From assembly GCA_001887945.1 (NCBI GenBank), contig LDOQ01000212.1, positions 62,001-126,000 of the forward strand: DNA of 64,000 nt, given 5' to 3'. The position numbers were made by a program, and so were the translations under genes. Of the stretch, positions 15,627 through 47,512 are shown one piece after another (positions within the stretch are counted from its first letter, which is position 1; each line of letters opens with the position of its first letter). Under the pieces are notes generated by a model. That model saw only the letters and a program-made list of their open reading frames with translations, did not search any database and was not told the DNA's origin. The stretch is from Spraguea lophii. Lineage: Eukaryota; Microsporidia; Spragueidae.

Positions 15627-18170
15627 TTAATTAGAAATATAAGATAGATAATTGTTTAAATATAAATAAGCTACTATACCATCTTCTTCGATTCCAGAAA
15701 TCAACATATCATCCGCAACCCCTTCACAATCAAAATACATTTTATACGTAGTGTTATTTACTGCATTTCTCGAATATAAGAATTCGGCGACTTTTGTGAT
15801 ATATAATTCTTTTGAATTTGTAAGAATTTGTAATTCACGAATGGCATTATCTACAGAAAATTTTTTAAAGAACTGATATATAACATAATTAGATGATCTT
15901 AATAAAGAATATGGTATTGTAGATTGGAATAAATGTTTTTCATGAAAAAATCCTAATACCTGGGATAATTTCATTTTCCAGCATTGTAAAATTTGAACAT
16001 TTTCTATATATGTATTTGATGTTGTTACGTAAATTAAAGCATCATTCTTTAATCCATCCAAAAATATTTCTACGACCTTTGAAAAATCGTCATAATCGAT
16101 ATTTCTATATTTTCGGAAAATTTGGAAAAAATTTTCCATTTGACCATCGTAACAAACATCAAATGATGGACTGAGTATCTCTAATGCATTTTTTATAGTT
16201 TCTCTATTTTCTTTACTAAGCATAATAATAAATGCTTCTAAATAATCTTTTATAGTATCTCGATAACTTTCTCCCATTGTATTTTGTATTCCTTCTTCTT
16301 CAACTTTTTTGTAAATAACATCAAGATATCTTAGAGATCTATTTTTTAAAATTTCATCATCTAACTGCGATGTTATTTCTATAAAAATATTGCGTAATTC
16401 TTCATATTGTAATTTATGTTTTTCAACAGAAATCGGTTTCATATTTCTAATCTTTTGTATATTCCAACCAAGTCCTAATTTATTAGCCTCCCACATTAAT
16501 CTAGAAGTGCACATTGCATTTAAAAATGCAGTATTCCCAATTTCTGCCACAGATATGCTATCTACCCATGTTGGCGGAATTTCAAGAATTCCTAAATATC
16601 CTCCTCTCCCAAAAATGTCTAGAGGATTATTATCGATGCATATATATTGTTTGGATCGTAAATTTTCATTTAACGGTGGGATATTTTCTAAGCTGTTATT
16701 CGAAAGATATAAATTCTTAATATTTGACAGAGTAAAAAAATTTTTAGAAATTTTCTGAATCTTATTATTTTTAAGGTTAAGAATGTCTAGATTAAAACAT
16801 GAAACATTTTCAGAAATACAACTCAATGTATTATCGGATAAATCCAGTAATTTAAGTGTTGGGATTTTTGTGAAAACTTCTGGTATAAAAAAAAGCTTAC
16901 TGTTAGTTATATGTAACTCTTTTATTTGGGTAAAATCTAAAAAAAAATCGAATCTCTCTTTAATATCAATCATAGAACTAGAACATAATGTAAGAAACGA
17001 TAAATCGCAACTTGTTACATTTTTAAAATATCTCAAATAATCAATTTTATCAAGACCTTGAAAAGTAATACAAAGTTCAAGAATATCCGGAAATAAAAGA
17101 TAATTACCATCTAACGTATGATTGTTTCCTTTAAATATCGTTATTTTCTCTATATTATTTTCATAGATGTGTAATTCAGTTAGATTCCTTAATGCTCCAT
17201 CGTATATAGATACATAGGCAATATTGTTTTTAGAAAGATAGAGACTATTCAAATTCATAAAATTGGTCGGTAAAAATACAACAGCAATAATTTTATTTCC
17301 AGAAAATGATAACATTTCTAAATCTTTTAAATTTAATAGTTCATTTGGTATCATAGTAAAATTATTGCGTGCCAAATTCAGTATTCTTAGAACAGAAAAT
17401 TGTTCAAAAGTCTGGGGAAGAGAAGATAGATTATTTTCTTCTAATGAAAGCACCAACGCATTACATACATTAAAATCTAGGGGAAGATGGTATAAATTGC
17501 ATCCACCTGCCTTCAAACTTTCAGTTGCAGTGGAAATGTTTTTTAATGTTTGATCAATAATATTTCTAGCGGAATCTTCCCTATCTAAAGAACGACCATT
17601 ACATGTAAGAAAAACAACTTTCAGTTGTTTTAAATCATTAAATATATCTGGTATAGATTTTATGTAATTATTATTTAAATCTAAAATATTCAACTCTTTT
17701 AAATTCGCTATACCATCTGGAATGAATATTATACAATTATTACTCATATTTAATTTAAACAGATTAGGGAGATTGAAAATAACATCAGGAATACAATAAA
17801 ATCTATTCTGCGATAAATCTAATATTCTTAAATTTTTAAATTTACTAAATTCTTGGGGAAGTGTTGTAATCCCGCAATTACTTATTATTAATTCTTTTAT
17901 CAGATTTAATTCACAAAATATTTTAGGGAATGTACTAACTTTTCGCAATGGTTCAAACCTAATCTTTAAGGTAGTACAGTCGATGTTTAATCCATAACAA
18001 TAGCTGGTGTTTATATAATTTTGGATCCTAGCTGCTTTTTCCTTTGCATTATTTTCTATAAATTTCATTAAAGCTTCCTCCTGTAAAAAATATATATCTA
18101 TCGGATTTGTAAGAGTCGCATTTCTTAAACAAAAATATAATATAATTTGAAGAAGATAGCAGATTATCAT
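15627..18170 (-). CDS. secreted leucine-rich-repeat protein with possible NEL-like C-terminal domain
   Basis: 847 residues. The open frame starts at a TTG two codons earlier; the first ATG gives a hydrophobic amino terminus (MIICYLLQIILYFCLRNA) that looks like a signal peptide. About 15 leucine-rich repeats with LxxLxLxxNxI and IP/LP endings fill roughly residues 95-510. After the last repeat, around residue 525, comes IPPTWVDSI and then a long helical region to 847. In it a Cys-X-Asp (Cys673-Tyr674-Asp675) is followed by aromatic residues, and further on by VQILQCWKMKLSQVLGF. This resembles bacterial IpaH/SspH NEL ubiquitin ligases, where LRRs precede a CxD catalytic domain. LRR and secretion are visible; ligase activity is inference. 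No C-run before the start. Confidence 0.8.
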   Translation of the reverse strand: MIICYLLQIILYFCLRNATLTNPIDIYFLQEEALMKFIENNAKEKAARIQNYINTSYCYGLNIDCTTLKIRFEPLRKVSTFPKIFCELNLIKELIISNCGITTLPQEFSKFKNLRILDLSQNRFYCIPDVIFNLPNLFKLNMSNNCIIFIPDGIANLKELNILDLNNNYIKSIPDIFNDLKQLKVVFLTCNGRSLDREDSARNIIDQTLKNISTATESLKAGGCNLYHLPLDFNVCNALVLSLEENNLSSLPQTFEQFSVLRILNLARNNFTMIPNELLNLKDLEMLSFSGNKIIAVVFLPTNFMNLNSLYLSKNNIAYVSIYDGALRNLTELHIYENNIEKITIFKGNNHTLDGNYLLFPDILELCITFQGLDKIDYLRYFKNVTSCDLSFLTLCSSSMIDIKERFDFFLDFTQIKELHITNSKLFFIPEVFTKIPTLKLLDLSDNTLSCISENVSCFNLDILNLKNNKIQKISKNFFTLSNIKNLYLSNNSLENIPPLNENLRSKQYICIDNNPLDIFGRGGYLGILEIPPTWVDSISVAEIGNTAFLNAMCTSRLMWEANKLGLGWNIQKIRNMKPISVEKHKLQYEELRNIFIEITSQLDDEILKNRSLRYLDVIYKKVEEEGIQNTMGESYRDTIKDYLEAFIIMLSKENRETIKNALEILSPSFDVCYDGQMENFFQIFRKYRNIDYDDFSKVVEIFLDGLKNDALIYVTTSNTYIENVQILQCWKMKLSQVLGFFHEKHLFQSTIPYSLLRSSNYVIYQFFKKFSVDNAIRELQILTNSKELYITKVAEFLYSRNAVNNTTYKMYFDCEGVADDMLISGIEEDGIVAYLYLNNYLSYISN

Positions 18171-18629: not shown

Positions 18630-18900
18630 TTTTTTAATGAAGCTTTTATTTATAGAAGTTTTTTGATCGGATATAGCATACTATGGCCTATACCTTGGAT
18701 TTTTGAAACAATTTAAATTTATACCGATTGGTTTCACTACAAATATGCATTAATCTATTTTATTTGATATTCAATATTGCTATGATTTTACGTATAATAC
18801 GTATTACTTCTCCATTCTCTATGAGATTTCTATTTTCTGTCATAATATAATATTACTTGTCCATTATTCGGCATAATATTTTTTTCGCAGAAACAGAAAT
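18630..18900 (-). repeat. decayed tRNA-like SINE copy (reverse orientation)
   Basis: Read on the minus strand it carries the family tail (TATAAATAAAAGCTTCATT type, near 18636-18658), then a block near 18700-18760 matching the region around GAAACCAGTTAGTACAAG, including the reversed ATTAATGCATAT-type match. The match weakens beyond about 18870 and the tRNA-like head is not visible. The copy lies about 460 bases upstream of the LRR gene. Confidence 0.65.
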
Positions 18901-23634: not shown

Positions 23635-24099
23635 AAAACTAATAATTAAGCCCGTTTGGTCCAATGACTGTGGGATAGTAACCAAACCCTGAGCCTAGCG
23701 GGTTCAAATCCATCGCCCAGATGAATTTTCAAAAACAGTAGAAGAAAAAGGTTGTTGAATCGGTGAGGGTTCAATAATACAGCATTAACGTTATATCTTG
23801 TATGACGGCCCTGCTACTAGATTAAAGTAGTGTTCAGCTGATGTAGTTGCAATCCCTGTATTGATTTGTGACTCGGCCAATACTATGCAACGAAAGAGGC
23901 TGGGAATTCCTTAAGAGCTGGAAGTGGGGGCGGCGACGCGCACCAGACGCAAAATCCTAACACTCTGGAACATAAGGTAAGATGAGATTAATGCATATCT
24001 GTAGCGAAACCAGTTAGTACAAGTTTAATTTTGCTCGAGGAACCGAAGGTCACAGACCATGGTAAGCCGCAACCGGTCAGAAAATTATAATAAATAAAT

Positions 24100-29277: not shown

Positions 29278-29741
29278 AAACCCGCTTAACTGAGTAGTTA
29301 TGTTGTGATAACTAAATCCCAAGTCTAACAGATTCGAATCCTTTACCCAGAATAATTTTCAAAAAAATAGAAGGGAGAGGTTGTTGAGTGGACGAGGGTT
29401 CGATAGCATAACATTAGTTATGCTTTGTATGTCAGCTCCATTGTCAGATTAAAATGGTGTTTAATGAGTGTAATTGTAATCCCTGTATTGATTTATGACT
29501 TGATCAATACTATATTAAGAAAGAAGTTGGAAATCTTTAAAAAATTGTGAAGGTGTAGTGTTATGCATCATACGCAGAATCCCAGCATTCCGAAACATGA
29601 ACCAAGATGATATTAATGTACATATTTATAACAAAATTAATTAATACGAGTTTAAATATACTTTAGGAACCAAAGGTCATAACCCACGACGAGTCGCAGC
29701 CGTTCGGAAAACTTCTATAAATAAAAGTTTCATTAAAAAAA
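29278..29741 (+). repeat. tRNA-like SINE copy B
   Basis: Full-length but more diverged copy. The head has a damaged A box (TTAACTGAGTAG) and a B box GATTCGAATCC at about 29331-29341. The body keeps the GTTGTTGAGTGG, TGTATTGATTTATGACT and GAACCAAAGGTCAT landmarks, and the tail is TATAAATAAAAGTTTCATTA. No convincing target duplication. Confidence 0.85.
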
Positions 29742-40042: not shown

Positions 40043-40170
40043 CAGTATAAGATAAGATGAGATTAATGCATATATGTAGTGAAACCAGTTAATACAAGTT
40101 ACTTGTGTTTCGAAGACTAACGAACCATATCATGATGAATCACAAATAATCCGAGTATTTTACTAGCAAT
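40043..40170 (+). repeat. SINE fragment (3' part)
   Basis: Matches the distal part of the SINE family: AGATGAGATTAATGCATATA, then GTAGTGAAACCAGTTAATAC, then degraded sequence around ACGAACCATATCATGATGAA. The head and body are missing. It lies between two divergently or convergently placed genes, 31 bases from the end of the dephospho-CoA kinase gene. Confidence 0.8.
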
Positions 40171-41534: not shown

Positions 41535-41855
41535 AAATCTTTAATAGGGTAACATTGGTTATACCTGCATTATGGCTCCATTGGGAAATAAAATAATGTA
41601 TGACAGAGTAATTGCCATTACCGTATTAATTAAGTGACTCTCTATATCAAGAAGAAGGTTAAATTATCCTCAATTATTATATAATAATAAGTAAGCCATA
41701 ACATTTTGGAGCATAATATAAGATAAGATTAATACATATACGGTGAAACCAATTATCACAAATTATCCGTATTTTTAAGTGTTAACAATTTCAAATAATG
41801 ATGTACATCAACCCGAGACACTACTTTAATTATAATTAAAGCTTTATTAAAAATG
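41535..41855 (+). repeat. decayed SINE copy
   Basis: Follows the family in order: AGGGTAACATTGGTTATACC, then TATGGCTCCATTGG, GTAATTGCCATTACCGTATT, TCAAGAAGAAGG, CATAACATTTTGGAGCATAA, GATTAATACATATACGG with GAAACCAATTATCAC, and a tail like AATTAAAGCTTTATTAAAA. Many substitutions; the tRNA-like head is gone. An old insertion. Confidence 0.78.
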
Positions 41856-43650: not shown

Positions 43651-43660
43651 TATAACTGTT
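43651..43660 (+). repeat. SINE copy C target-site duplication, left
   Basis: TATAACTGTT directly precedes the SINE and is repeated exactly at 44165-44174 after its A-rich tail. Confidence 0.85.
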
Positions 43661-44164
43661 AGTCCCGCCTGGCCCAGTGGTCGTGGGGTGGTAACCAAAC
43701 CCCAAGCCTGGCGGGTTCGAATCCCTCATCCAGAAAAAATTTTCAAAACAAAAAAAAAATAATAATAATAAACGCAGAAGAGAAGAAAAAGGTTGTTGAG
43801 TGGGTGAGGTTTCGATAGCGCAGCATAGCTGTGCCTTGTATGACGGCCCCGCTACTAGATCAAAGTAGTGTTTAGCTGATGTAGTTGCAATCCCTGTATT
43901 GATTTGTGACTCGGCCAATACTATGCAACGAAAGAGGCTGGGAATTCCTTAAGAGCTGGAAGTGGGGGCGGCGACGCGCACCATACGCAAAATCCTAACA
44001 CTCTGGAGCATAAGGTAAGATGAGATTAATGCATATATGTAGTGAAACCAGTTAGTACAAGCTTAATTTCGCTCGAGGAACCGAAGGTCACAGACCATGG
44101 TAGGCCGCAACCGGCCAGGAAGCTTTGATAAATAAAAGTTTCATTCGTAAATAAAAAAAAAATA
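43661..44164 (+). repeat. tRNA-like SINE copy C, best preserved
   Basis: A 504-bp retroelement. The head is tRNA-like: A box TGGCCCAGTGG at 43670-43680 and B box GGTTCGAATCC at 43714-43724. Both fit the Pol III consensus, with starts 44 bases apart as in a tRNA. The cloverleaf itself does not close, so it is a tRNA relative and not a tRNA gene. The body is much richer in G and C than the genome (for example GGGGGCGGCGACGCGCACCA). The end is ATAAATAAAAGTTTCATT plus an A-rich tail. The 10-bp duplication TATAACTGTT flanks it. No protein is encoded. A frame on the opposite strand at 43559-43918 is a by-product. Confidence 0.9.
43670..43724 (+). promoter_or_regulatory. internal Pol III promoter (A and B boxes) of SINE C
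   Basis: The A box TGGCCCAGTGG (43670-43680) matches TRGYNNARNNG. The B box GGTTCGAATCC (43714-43724) matches GGTTCGAANCC without mismatch. Spacing is that of a tRNA gene. No early T-run interrupts the next 400 bases, so a full transcript is possible. Confidence 0.85.
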
Positions 44165-44174
44165 TATAACTGTT

Positions 44175-45240: not shown

Positions 45241-46863
45241 ATGTTTAAAATATTATTAACATTATTATTAATTGCTTCTTTTATAAAAAATACAAATTTA
45301 TTATTCAATAAAATATTGGATAATAAAAATAAAATATCTCTCAAAGAAGTTGTATCTGATTTTGTAGGTTCTTTATATTATATTAAAAATATTGTTATTG
45401 TTGTAAATGTAAATGAATATGGTAAACCTAATCCACTTACTCGGTGTATAATACCAAAAAATATTATAGGATTACATATAAATAATTCAAATGATTATGA
45501 AGATGTAGAGTTTATTTTTACAGATAAAACTAATATTAAGTATTTGAAGCTTACATATTTTTATACAAAAATATATTTACCAATTGATAGATTATTAAAA
45601 CATTATCAACAGCTAGAAAATTTGGAATTCTATAATACTGATTTTTGTAATATAAATATAACATCATTATCTTCTTTAAAGGTTTTAAAAGGGCAAAATT
45701 GGTGTATTACTTCATTTCCAAAAAATTTTTCTGATCTGAAAATACGAGATCTGTTTCTGAAAGGATGTCTTTTTAGATATATGGCGCTTGTAGAATATTT
45801 CAGTGGTAAAACAAACAATGTAACCAATGTAAAATCTTTATTTAAAGAGATATTTAATAATAAATATTTAAATAATATTGATTTAACAAATAATAATATT
45901 GGTTCTTACGACATTGATTTCAGCGGGTTTTCGGGTACAATTTTAAATTTATCTAGAAATAGGATAAAATCGTTAAATATTTCCATTTGTTCATTACGGA
46001 ATTTAGAAGTTTTAAATTTATCAGCAAATTTTATCAGTCAAGTGCCAGCTTCTATTTGCAATCTCGTAAATTTAAAGGAATTGAATTTAAGTTACAACGA
46101 TAGTAACAATTGTACAATAATTTTACCTCTAAAAAGTCTGAAATTGTTAAACATTTCATTTACTAAAACAAACTTAACACTTGATTTTAAATATCATATT
46201 GAAAATTTCACTTTGATAAATCGCAATAATCATCATTTAGAAATTAAAAGTTTAAAATCTGATAAAGCTGTTATATCTCTATTTGTAAATGATTTTTTAT
46301 CTGATATAGATGAATCTGCGCATAATAGATATAGTATTACACTTACAAGTCAATTATTTAACCTTTTCAATGTGCAAAAATTAACAGTTAATATAACTAG
46401 TTTTAGATTTTTTAAAACCCGTTTTTATAATTTAGCAACATTGCAATTACTTTGTATAATTTTTGATAATTCTAGATATAATGAATGTGAAGAAAAAAAA
46501 TATTTAAGAGATTTTACTACTAAAACAAATAATCTATTAAATATAACAACGTTAAAATATTTACAAAAAACTAAAAGGGAATTAGGCATAGGTTTATTAG
46601 AAATCATAACAGTGAAATATTTTTATATTTATAATTGTATTATAAATTCGAATCTTCAAAATATTTCTTATATGATTAGATTAGAAGAATTGCATTTCGT
46701 TTCTTGTATGTTTATAACCAATATTGAAAATATAATACTAAACCATGAAACTTTAAAAAATATTCAATTCAGAAATAATACCATTCCATATGATATGGAT
46801 CAAAAGAGAATTAGAATCAATCTATTAAAAAAGAATCTTCATATGCCGATCTTAAATAGTTGA
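45241..46863 (+). CDS. secreted leucine-rich-repeat protein
   Basis: 540 residues. The amino terminus MFKILLTLLLIASFIKN is a likely signal peptide. Imperfect leucine-rich repeats cover about residues 60-320; the clearest are NNIDLTNNNI, ILNLSRNRIKSLNISICSLRNLEVLNLSANFISQVPASICNLVNLKELNLSYND. Several N-x-S/T sites lie in the repeats. The C-terminal 180 residues (after about 340) are not recognised and differ from the C-terminal domain of the other LRR protein at 15627-18170; there is no Cys-X-Asp. No transmembrane anchor. Likely an exported, host-facing protein of a lineage-specific family. No C-run before the ATG, as in the other LRR gene. SINE copies lie on both sides. Confidence 0.82.
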   Translation: MFKILLTLLLIASFIKNTNLLFNKILDNKNKISLKEVVSDFVGSLYYIKNIVIVVNVNEYGKPNPLTRCIIPKNIIGLHINNSNDYEDVEFIFTDKTNIKYLKLTYFYTKIYLPIDRLLKHYQQLENLEFYNTDFCNINITSLSSLKVLKGQNWCITSFPKNFSDLKIRDLFLKGCLFRYMALVEYFSGKTNNVTNVKSLFKEIFNNKYLNNIDLTNNNIGSYDIDFSGFSGTILNLSRNRIKSLNISICSLRNLEVLNLSANFISQVPASICNLVNLKELNLSYNDSNNCTIILPLKSLKLLNISFTKTNLTLDFKYHIENFTLINRNNHHLEIKSLKSDKAVISLFVNDFLSDIDESAHNRYSITLTSQLFNLFNVQKLTVNITSFRFFKTRFYNLATLQLLCIIFDNSRYNECEEKKYLRDFTTKTNNLLNITTLKYLQKTKRELGIGLLEIITVKYFYIYNCIINSNLQNISYMIRLEELHFVSCMFITNIENIILNHETLKNIQFRNNTIPYDMDQKRIRINLLKKNLHMPILNS

Positions 46864-47051: not shown

Positions 47052-47512
47052 AGATCTGCTTGCATCAGTGGTCGTGAGGATGATAACTAAACCCCAAACC
47101 TAATGGTTTTGAATCCCTACCTGAAGATTTTTCAAAAAAAAGATAAAAGGTAGAAGAAAAGAACAATGTTATTAAAGGACTGAAGGTTCGATAACGTAAC
47201 ATTAACCGTGCTGTGTACAACGACTCATTACTAGGTTAAAGTAGTGTTTAGCTGGTGTAGTTGCAATCCCTGTATTGATTTGTGATTCACAAATATTATG
47301 CCAAGAAAGAGGTTTGGAATCTCTAAAAACCTGGGAGAACGAAAGATATTATATACAAAATCCCACGTTATGGTGTATAAAATAAAATTCATGTATATAT
47401 ATATAGCAAAACCAATTAATACAAATTTAAATATAATTTAGGAATTAAAGGTCATAGACCGCACAAGACACAGTTATTAAAAAACTGTTATAAATAAAAG
47501 TTTCATTAAAAG
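47052..47512 (+). repeat. tRNA-like SINE copy D
   Basis: Near-complete, moderately diverged copy. The head has TGCATCAGTGG in the A-box place and GGTTTTGAATCC in the B-box place, one base longer and changed. The body keeps TAAAGTAGTGTTTAGCTGGT, GTAGTTGCAATCCCTGTATT and ATAGACCGCACAAG. The tail is TATAAATAAAAGTTTCATTA. No clear target duplication. It starts about 190 bases after the LRR gene ends. Confidence 0.85.

Follow-up and report, generated by a model that had tools for sequence, protein, structure and literature searches.

A young SINE family with a LINE-like 3′ end and a candidate LINE partner in a microsporidian genome assembly

Introduction

The question raised by positions 43661–44164 of the 64,000-nucleotide stretch of DNA analyzed here (the window) is whether a microsporidian genome, a model of genome reduction, carries a SINE family and, if so, which element moves it. 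An initial annotation had proposed a tRNA-like SINE family at this locus, knew of no described SINE in microsporidia, and pointed out that a LINE partner with the same 3′ end would be required. No described microsporidian SINE was found among the papers listed by the literature searches, as represented by titles and the opening parts of abstracts. The main texts of PMC12558613, PMC4202319, PMC12449221, and PMC13174016 contain the word “SINE” zero times, with repeat tables placed in supplements that may list SINEs; of the surveys PMC12558613 and PMC4202319, one pools “retroelements,” and PMC10790688, on Microsporidia MB, has “sines” once in its text. Within this literature, the SINE family described here, with its LINE-like 3′ end, is apparently the first to be noticed in Microsporidia.

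Results

Structure of the element

The element is 504 bp long and has a G+C content of 44.9%, compared to 23.5% for the window. Its parts and flanks are as follows:

43651–43660: left target-site duplication, TATAACTGTT
43661–44164, + strand: full-length young SINE copy, with the G of GTCCCG at 43662
43662–43735, + strand: Pol III promoter head, 63.5% G+C, with tRNA-like box spacing and no recognizable cloverleaf
43670–43680, + strand: A box, TGGCCCAGTGG
43714–43724, + strand: B box, GGTTCGAATCC
43736–43790, + strand: A-rich linker (approximate limits), including TTTT at 43740–43743, a possible weak Pol III stop
43791–44071, + strand: G+C-rich body (approximate start)
44072–44120, + strand: LINE-like 3′ block, predicted to form two stem-loops; its identity is 86% to LINE-A on contig C21 and 77–93% to ten LINE copies
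44129–44151, + strand: 3′ terminus resembling the end of some LINE-A copies, with AATAAA at 44131
44152–44164, + strand: A-rich tail
44165–44174: right target-site duplication, TATAACTGTT

The promoter boxes, G+C-rich body, A-rich tail, and exact 10-bp target duplication of the initial annotation are thus all present. The boxes lie 33 bp apart in the sequence. A joint A–B box pattern, drawn up with knowledge of the 43661 copy, occurs a single time in the window and in none of 100 dinucleotide shuffles. A described repeat of another kind was not encountered: Pfam gave no family match in the one frame scanned (stops as X), and Rfam gave four sub-threshold matches to the 43661 copy, the best with an E value of 0.085. 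Taken with the genome-wide copies described below, this anatomy marks 43661–44164 as what appears to be a genuine SINE.

A 3′ end in common with LINE-A

The LINE partner anticipated by the initial annotation has a credible candidate in LINE-A, a non-LTR family of the same assembly in which a 40–62-bp block matches the SINE and the terminus is similar in some copies. SINE positions 412–460 are 86% identical to the LINE-A 3′ UTR on C21, and the block is found in ten LINE copies at 77–93% over 40–62 bp (E values of 1e-6 to 3e-13); the LINE copy on C27 lacks most of it. Between block and terminus, LINE-A has about 110 bp that are absent from the SINE, after which both elements finish in a TAAATAAAA-TTTC-like sequence followed by A's. 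The LINE termini were compared with 964 control poly(A) sites, taken from positions that precede A runs in the window (those in SINE copies among them): the C6 terminus scored best and was equaled by 6 controls, C63b by 11, C21 by 14, and three others by 16, while the remaining 7 of 13 were equaled by 32 to 593. The block resemblance is therefore strong and the terminus resemblance moderate and variable between LINE copies, which is supportive rather than decisive.

The same two stem-loops are predicted in the SINE and in LINE-A, and the SINE 3′ region has a third hairpin. Against 200 shuffles, the SINE 3′ region is clearly stabilized (z of −3.9, and −3.1 for a shorter piece), and the LINE-A 3′ region less clearly so (z of −1.3 and −1.4). 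Across 11 sequences, 14 of 500 shuffles reached the covariation score and 112 of 500 reached the count of pairs with both sides changed, so that paired changes weakly back the predicted stem-loops. A search for the 3′ module in viral and prokaryotic contigs returned no match.

The main competing explanation is that the SINE is moved by another LINE, either LINE-B (a second family) or one outside the assembly, and that the block in LINE-A reflects common ancestry only. This would account for the absence from the SINE tail of about 110 bp of the LINE-A tail, and it draws some support from a diverged LINE copy on C5 (L089, 71%) with SINE-like letters in the block (CAC, GTAGG) and from the assembly's lack of the LINE core. 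However, LINE-A is the only element found to have both the block and the terminus in common with the SINE, and several LINE-A copies are 85–95% identical to each other's reference; a different LINE as the mover is accordingly judged rather unlikely.

The LINE-A and LINE-B families

A reverse transcriptase (RT) search of the genome gave nine matches, six of them above the cut-off. One sub-cut-off match, at the very start of contig C72, is part of a 479-aa frame (L065:3–1439) that is cut by the contig end and comprises a putative endonuclease domain and the putative start of the RT (Exo_endo_phos_2, E of 0.0019; RVT_1, E of 0.0018; both below curated cut-offs). Twenty homologues of this frame were found, carrying endonuclease and RT domains, and its relatives include proteins of Smittium culicis (36%) and Acanthocheilonema viteae (28%). 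The C-terminal part and 3′ UTR of LINE-A (at L078 and L072, among others) lie on C61, C21, C63, C11, and other contigs, several of them at contig ends. Both parts occur on C1 (L073/L092), suggesting that the N- and C-terminal pieces belong to one family. The RT core of LINE-A was not found in the assembly, being missing where contigs break, so that no intact LINE can be demonstrated; the assembly seems to break inside the LINE-A repeat.

LINE-A copies show 5′ truncation, A tails, and, at C8 and C6, target duplications. Eight copies were listed, three of them lacking a 5′ boundary. Of the five with both ends, two carry a duplication (12 bp at C8, 10 bp at C6); among the remaining three, one lacked any match of 7 bp and two had matches of 7 bp and 8 bp, so that none shows a clear duplication. 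For C8, two paralogues of the empty site were recovered, one with a single exact 12-bp target (L146) and one with two changes (L147), and in each the target runs on into the far flank.

The end of LINE-B is also found on C21. This contig opens (L072, 1–3570) with a nested LINE-B end, a LINE-A end, and then matches to the 5′ part of the C72 LINE; TTAGG-like repeats (ggttaggttaggttaggg) follow the nested LINEs at about position 3550 of L072. LTR-type elements with RT and integrase-like parts, by frame reading, were seen on C73, C44, and C48 (L058, L061, and L059), the C48 element being broken by stops. These elements were set aside: blastn with the SINE in L058, L059, L060, and L061 found only SINE copies. 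A further 1239-aa Asn-rich frame with RVT_1 matches (L062:3722–7441) looks like a telomerase reverse transcriptase.

A common start of the 3′ module

In LINE-A, the copies on C8 and C6 begin at CTCC and TCC, respectively, of CTCCAAGAACC. In LINE-B, the starts of the C20, C47, and C42 copies are at TCC (TCT in C42) of the corresponding CTCCTGGAACC. These five copies, two of LINE-A and three of LINE-B, are about 180–200 bp long, have (C)TCC before GAACC, and lie in unrelated flanks (L083, L084, L088/L090, L086, and L087); a LINE-B copy on C16 has flanks in common with C42 and is not independent. The LINE-like part of the SINE starts at the corresponding nucleotide (L072:1825, equivalent to window position 44072). 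On the strength of this common start of short LINE-A copies, short LINE-B copies, and the LINE-like part of the SINE, we tentatively suggest that the 3′ module might be a discrete mobile unit: its start could be a real RNA end or an RT stop, perhaps the edge of a stretch held by the LINE protein, and the SINE could have been born by fusion of a Pol III unit to this module.

Several observations make this suggestion doubtful. Other starts occur in three of the six LINE-B copies longer than 100 bp (a count that excludes C21 itself and the C16 duplicate) and in all nine shorter pieces, most of the truncated LINE-A copies listed begin elsewhere, the LINE-B stretch does not form the same hairpins, and the three LINE-B copies have no exact target duplication by eye. 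A ribozyme in the LINE 3′ UTRs was rejected as the cause of the fixed start: Rfam gave four weak, chance-level matches and no ribozyme.

Genome-wide copies, target sites, and age

Searching the genome (5.27 Mb, 73 contigs) with the young copy yielded 443 first-look candidates, and 40 of them were scored. These 40 copies lie on 25 contigs and are 96–100% identical over 482–504 of the 504 bases; three more partial matches from the same search are at 73–79%. When the old copy at 29305 served as the query instead, there were 420 candidates; the 40 that were scored are at 69–75%, excluding the self-match. The two scored lists have no place in common by eye; the candidate lists may overlap. A profile search of eight other 10-kb loci, chosen for RT matches, found four SINE copies in three of them and none in the other five.

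The target duplication noted at 43661 recurs at other insertion sites. An exact duplication of at least 9 bp was found in 33 of the 40 copies when a gap of up to 6 bases was permitted between the left duplication and the element, and in 16 of those 33 it is exactly 14 bp long. Under a stricter setting (3 bases allowed), 32 of 40 copies have at least 10 bp, versus 0.8% of 1560 mismatched left/right flank pairs, a null computed for this 3-base setting. Seven copies have no duplication of at least 9 bp; one of these (L017) stops before the tail, and another (L035) adjoins other old copies. In most of the 40 copies, an A tail precedes the right duplication. An apparent target-site motif, depletion of A just before the duplication, was discarded as a probable artefact of matching through the A tail. 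When the 33 target sites were rejoined in silico, none lay in an open frame of at least 100 aa, versus 65.5% of 400 random window positions, as expected if insertions are tolerated only between genes.

Among 80 SINE flanks of up to 300 bp, seven pairs match, all of them in part, which argues that the copies on 25 contigs do not derive from one tandem or segmental duplication, one of the outcomes by which the initial annotation would have been overturned. A host non-coding RNA gene family spread by segmental duplication would explain these partial flank matches and the likeness of the A and B boxes to those of Pol III genes, but the remaining flanks are unrelated, and the individual target duplications, A tails, and avoidance of open frames described above leave that explanation with very little probability. 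From the dispersal, target duplications, A tails, near-identity, and LINE-shared 3′ block of the copies, we infer that the SINE has spread by retrotransposition.

The 40 copies, the youngest by construction of the sample, diverge from their consensus by 1.3% on average and from each other by a mean of 2.0% (range, 0–4.7%). This low divergence indicates that the family is recently active, while old copies at about 70% imply that it has long been resident in the genome. Diagnostic sites common to subsets of the 40 copies point to several source copies. A raw C-to-T excess at CpG in the young copies (38/1760) was rejected as a CpG signal, since by eye it falls mostly on shared diagnostic sites.

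The promoter head

The initial description of the family as tRNA-like is apt for the promoter boxes and does not extend to a cloverleaf or a parent tRNA, neither of which was recovered. The Rfam tRNA model gave no match at an E value of 10 for the 43661 copy, where a weak match was possibly masked by a tmRNA fragment that belongs to the same clan and overlaps it (E of 0.085), and none at an E value of 1 in five loci, four of which were picked for older or head-only copies. Folding of the head is no better than that of shuffles (z of −0.4). Beyond the boxes, Rfam scans and alignment to 52 of 57 tRNA genes identified no parent tRNA; the best of the 52 alignments, to tRNA-Leu(UAG), is box-driven.

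The SINE would be transcribed by Pol III from its internal boxes, and the TTTT at 43740 could act as an early stop. An internal TTTT is present in 35 of the 40 young copies, TTTTT in one, and no T run in four. Among the 52 tRNA genes, 46 have a run of 4–8 T in the few downstream bases covered, 15 of these with four as far as visible, and hence four T's may or may not suffice as a stop.

Old copies in the window

A profile built from the 40 young copies identified eight pieces in the window, amounting to 2,300 bases (3.6%), and none in the reversed window. Where at least seven copies besides that at 43661 had been estimated, exactly seven were thus found:

728–857, − strand: 3′ fragment of an old SINE copy
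18636–18801, − strand: 3′ fragment of an old SINE copy
23651–24098, + strand: old SINE copy at 83% identity overall; its inner tract (approximately 23797–24063) is young
29281–29741, + strand: old SINE copy, near full length
40044–40116, + strand: short fragment of SINE body
41695–41762, + strand: short fragment of SINE body
47056–47510, + strand: old SINE copy, near full length

The copies at 23649 and 43661 had been described as nearly identical over 300 bases, which holds for an inner tract and not for the remainder: overall the pair is 83% identical over 476 columns. The 23651 copy is a mosaic, with 4 mismatches in 267 positions at consensus 172–438 (about 1.5%) and 40 in 183 outside it (22%), a contrast seen in 0 of 100 permutations. 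This pair is therefore a poor basis for the claim of recent activity, for which the 40 genome-wide copies are a better one. An old copy carrying a young inner tract is best read as the likely product of gene conversion between dispersed SINE copies. When five further old copies were examined, three lacked such a contrast (21, 28, and 30 of 100 permutations reached theirs), and the results for 47056 (1/100) and L007 (2/100) were borderline. No target duplication is evident by eye in the flanks of the 23651 copy. SINE-bearing spacers in the window are flanked by what appear from their sequence to be leucine-rich-repeat-like frames at 15627–18170 and 45241–46863.

Origin of the host DNA

Next to itself, the window glucose-6-phosphate isomerase matches proteins from Astathelohania contejeani, Binucleata daphniae, and Hamiltosporidium tvaerminnensis at 56–58% and that of Gurleya vavrai at 61% over 79%. 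All named organisms above rank 33 among its matches are microsporidian; the first non-microsporidian label is a scorpion (38%), followed by a louse entry marked as unverified contamination. A microsporidian SSU model found no rRNA match in the assembly (45 candidates, 5 scored), and the microsporidian assignment consequently rests on one protein and the look of the window genes.

The G+C content of both the SINE and the LINE far exceeds that of the window (44.9 and 43 vs 23.5%): LINE frames have 43–44% G+C, with 43 and 39% at third positions, compared to 16–29% at third positions of ten window genes. This foreign-looking composition may reflect a horizontal origin, and old AT-decayed copies speak against a very recent arrival. 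That the assembly contains DNA of the infected animal, to which the SINE would belong, might be suggested by this composition and by two named animal relatives of the LINE (a filarial nematode and a centipede), but it is exceedingly improbable given that the SINE is intergenic in a window where the gene tested is microsporidian, that its copies lie on 25 contigs in AT-rich flanks, and that old decayed copies occur in the same window.

Discussion

The element is very probably a SINE in the sense of a non-autonomous retroposon, one that a LINE of the same genome would mobilize. In the proposed mechanism, RNA polymerase III would transcribe the SINE from its internal A and B boxes, yielding an RNA with a LINE-related 3′ module composed of two predicted stem-loops, a AAATAAAA-TTTC terminus, and an A tail. 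This module would be recognized by the LINE endonuclease/reverse transcriptase; the enzyme would nick intergenic DNA rich in A/T, with the cuts about 14 bp apart, and the SINE RNA would be copied in by target-primed reverse transcription.

The presence of a young SINE family and its candidate LINE partner in an assembly of 5.3 Mb would mean that retroposition driven by Pol III operates in this phylum. The family would supply markers, scored by presence or absence, for strains and relatives, and would open both the birth of SINEs and LINE recognition to testing in a very small eukaryotic genome.

The eel UnaL2 and UnaSINE are a SINE/LINE pair with a common 3′ tail. As in other such pairs, the SINE 3′ end described here matches a LINE of the same genome and has predicted stem-loops; unlike in those pairs, the SINE tail looks like a LINE tail from which about 110 bp are missing internally. 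The existence of pairs with a common 3′ tail is given as a general statement in PMC7245038.

Among tRNA-type SINEs, the account of the AfuSINE2 families of A. fumigatus gives target duplications of 4–14 bp (PMC5063351). AfuSINE2 resembles the present family, which is likewise short and dispersed, with a Pol III-type head and target duplications; the present family differs in its microsporidian host, its lack of a recognizable parent tRNA, and its LINE-like 3′ end.

LINEs have been recorded in Microsporidia, including four non-LTR families in the Anncaliia algerae survey (PMC4202319) and a Dong-R4 type LINE in the Microsporidia MB report (PMC13174016). LINE-A is, like these, a non-LTR retrotransposon of this phylum and, compared to them, has a putative Exo_endo_phos-type endonuclease domain ahead of the RT.
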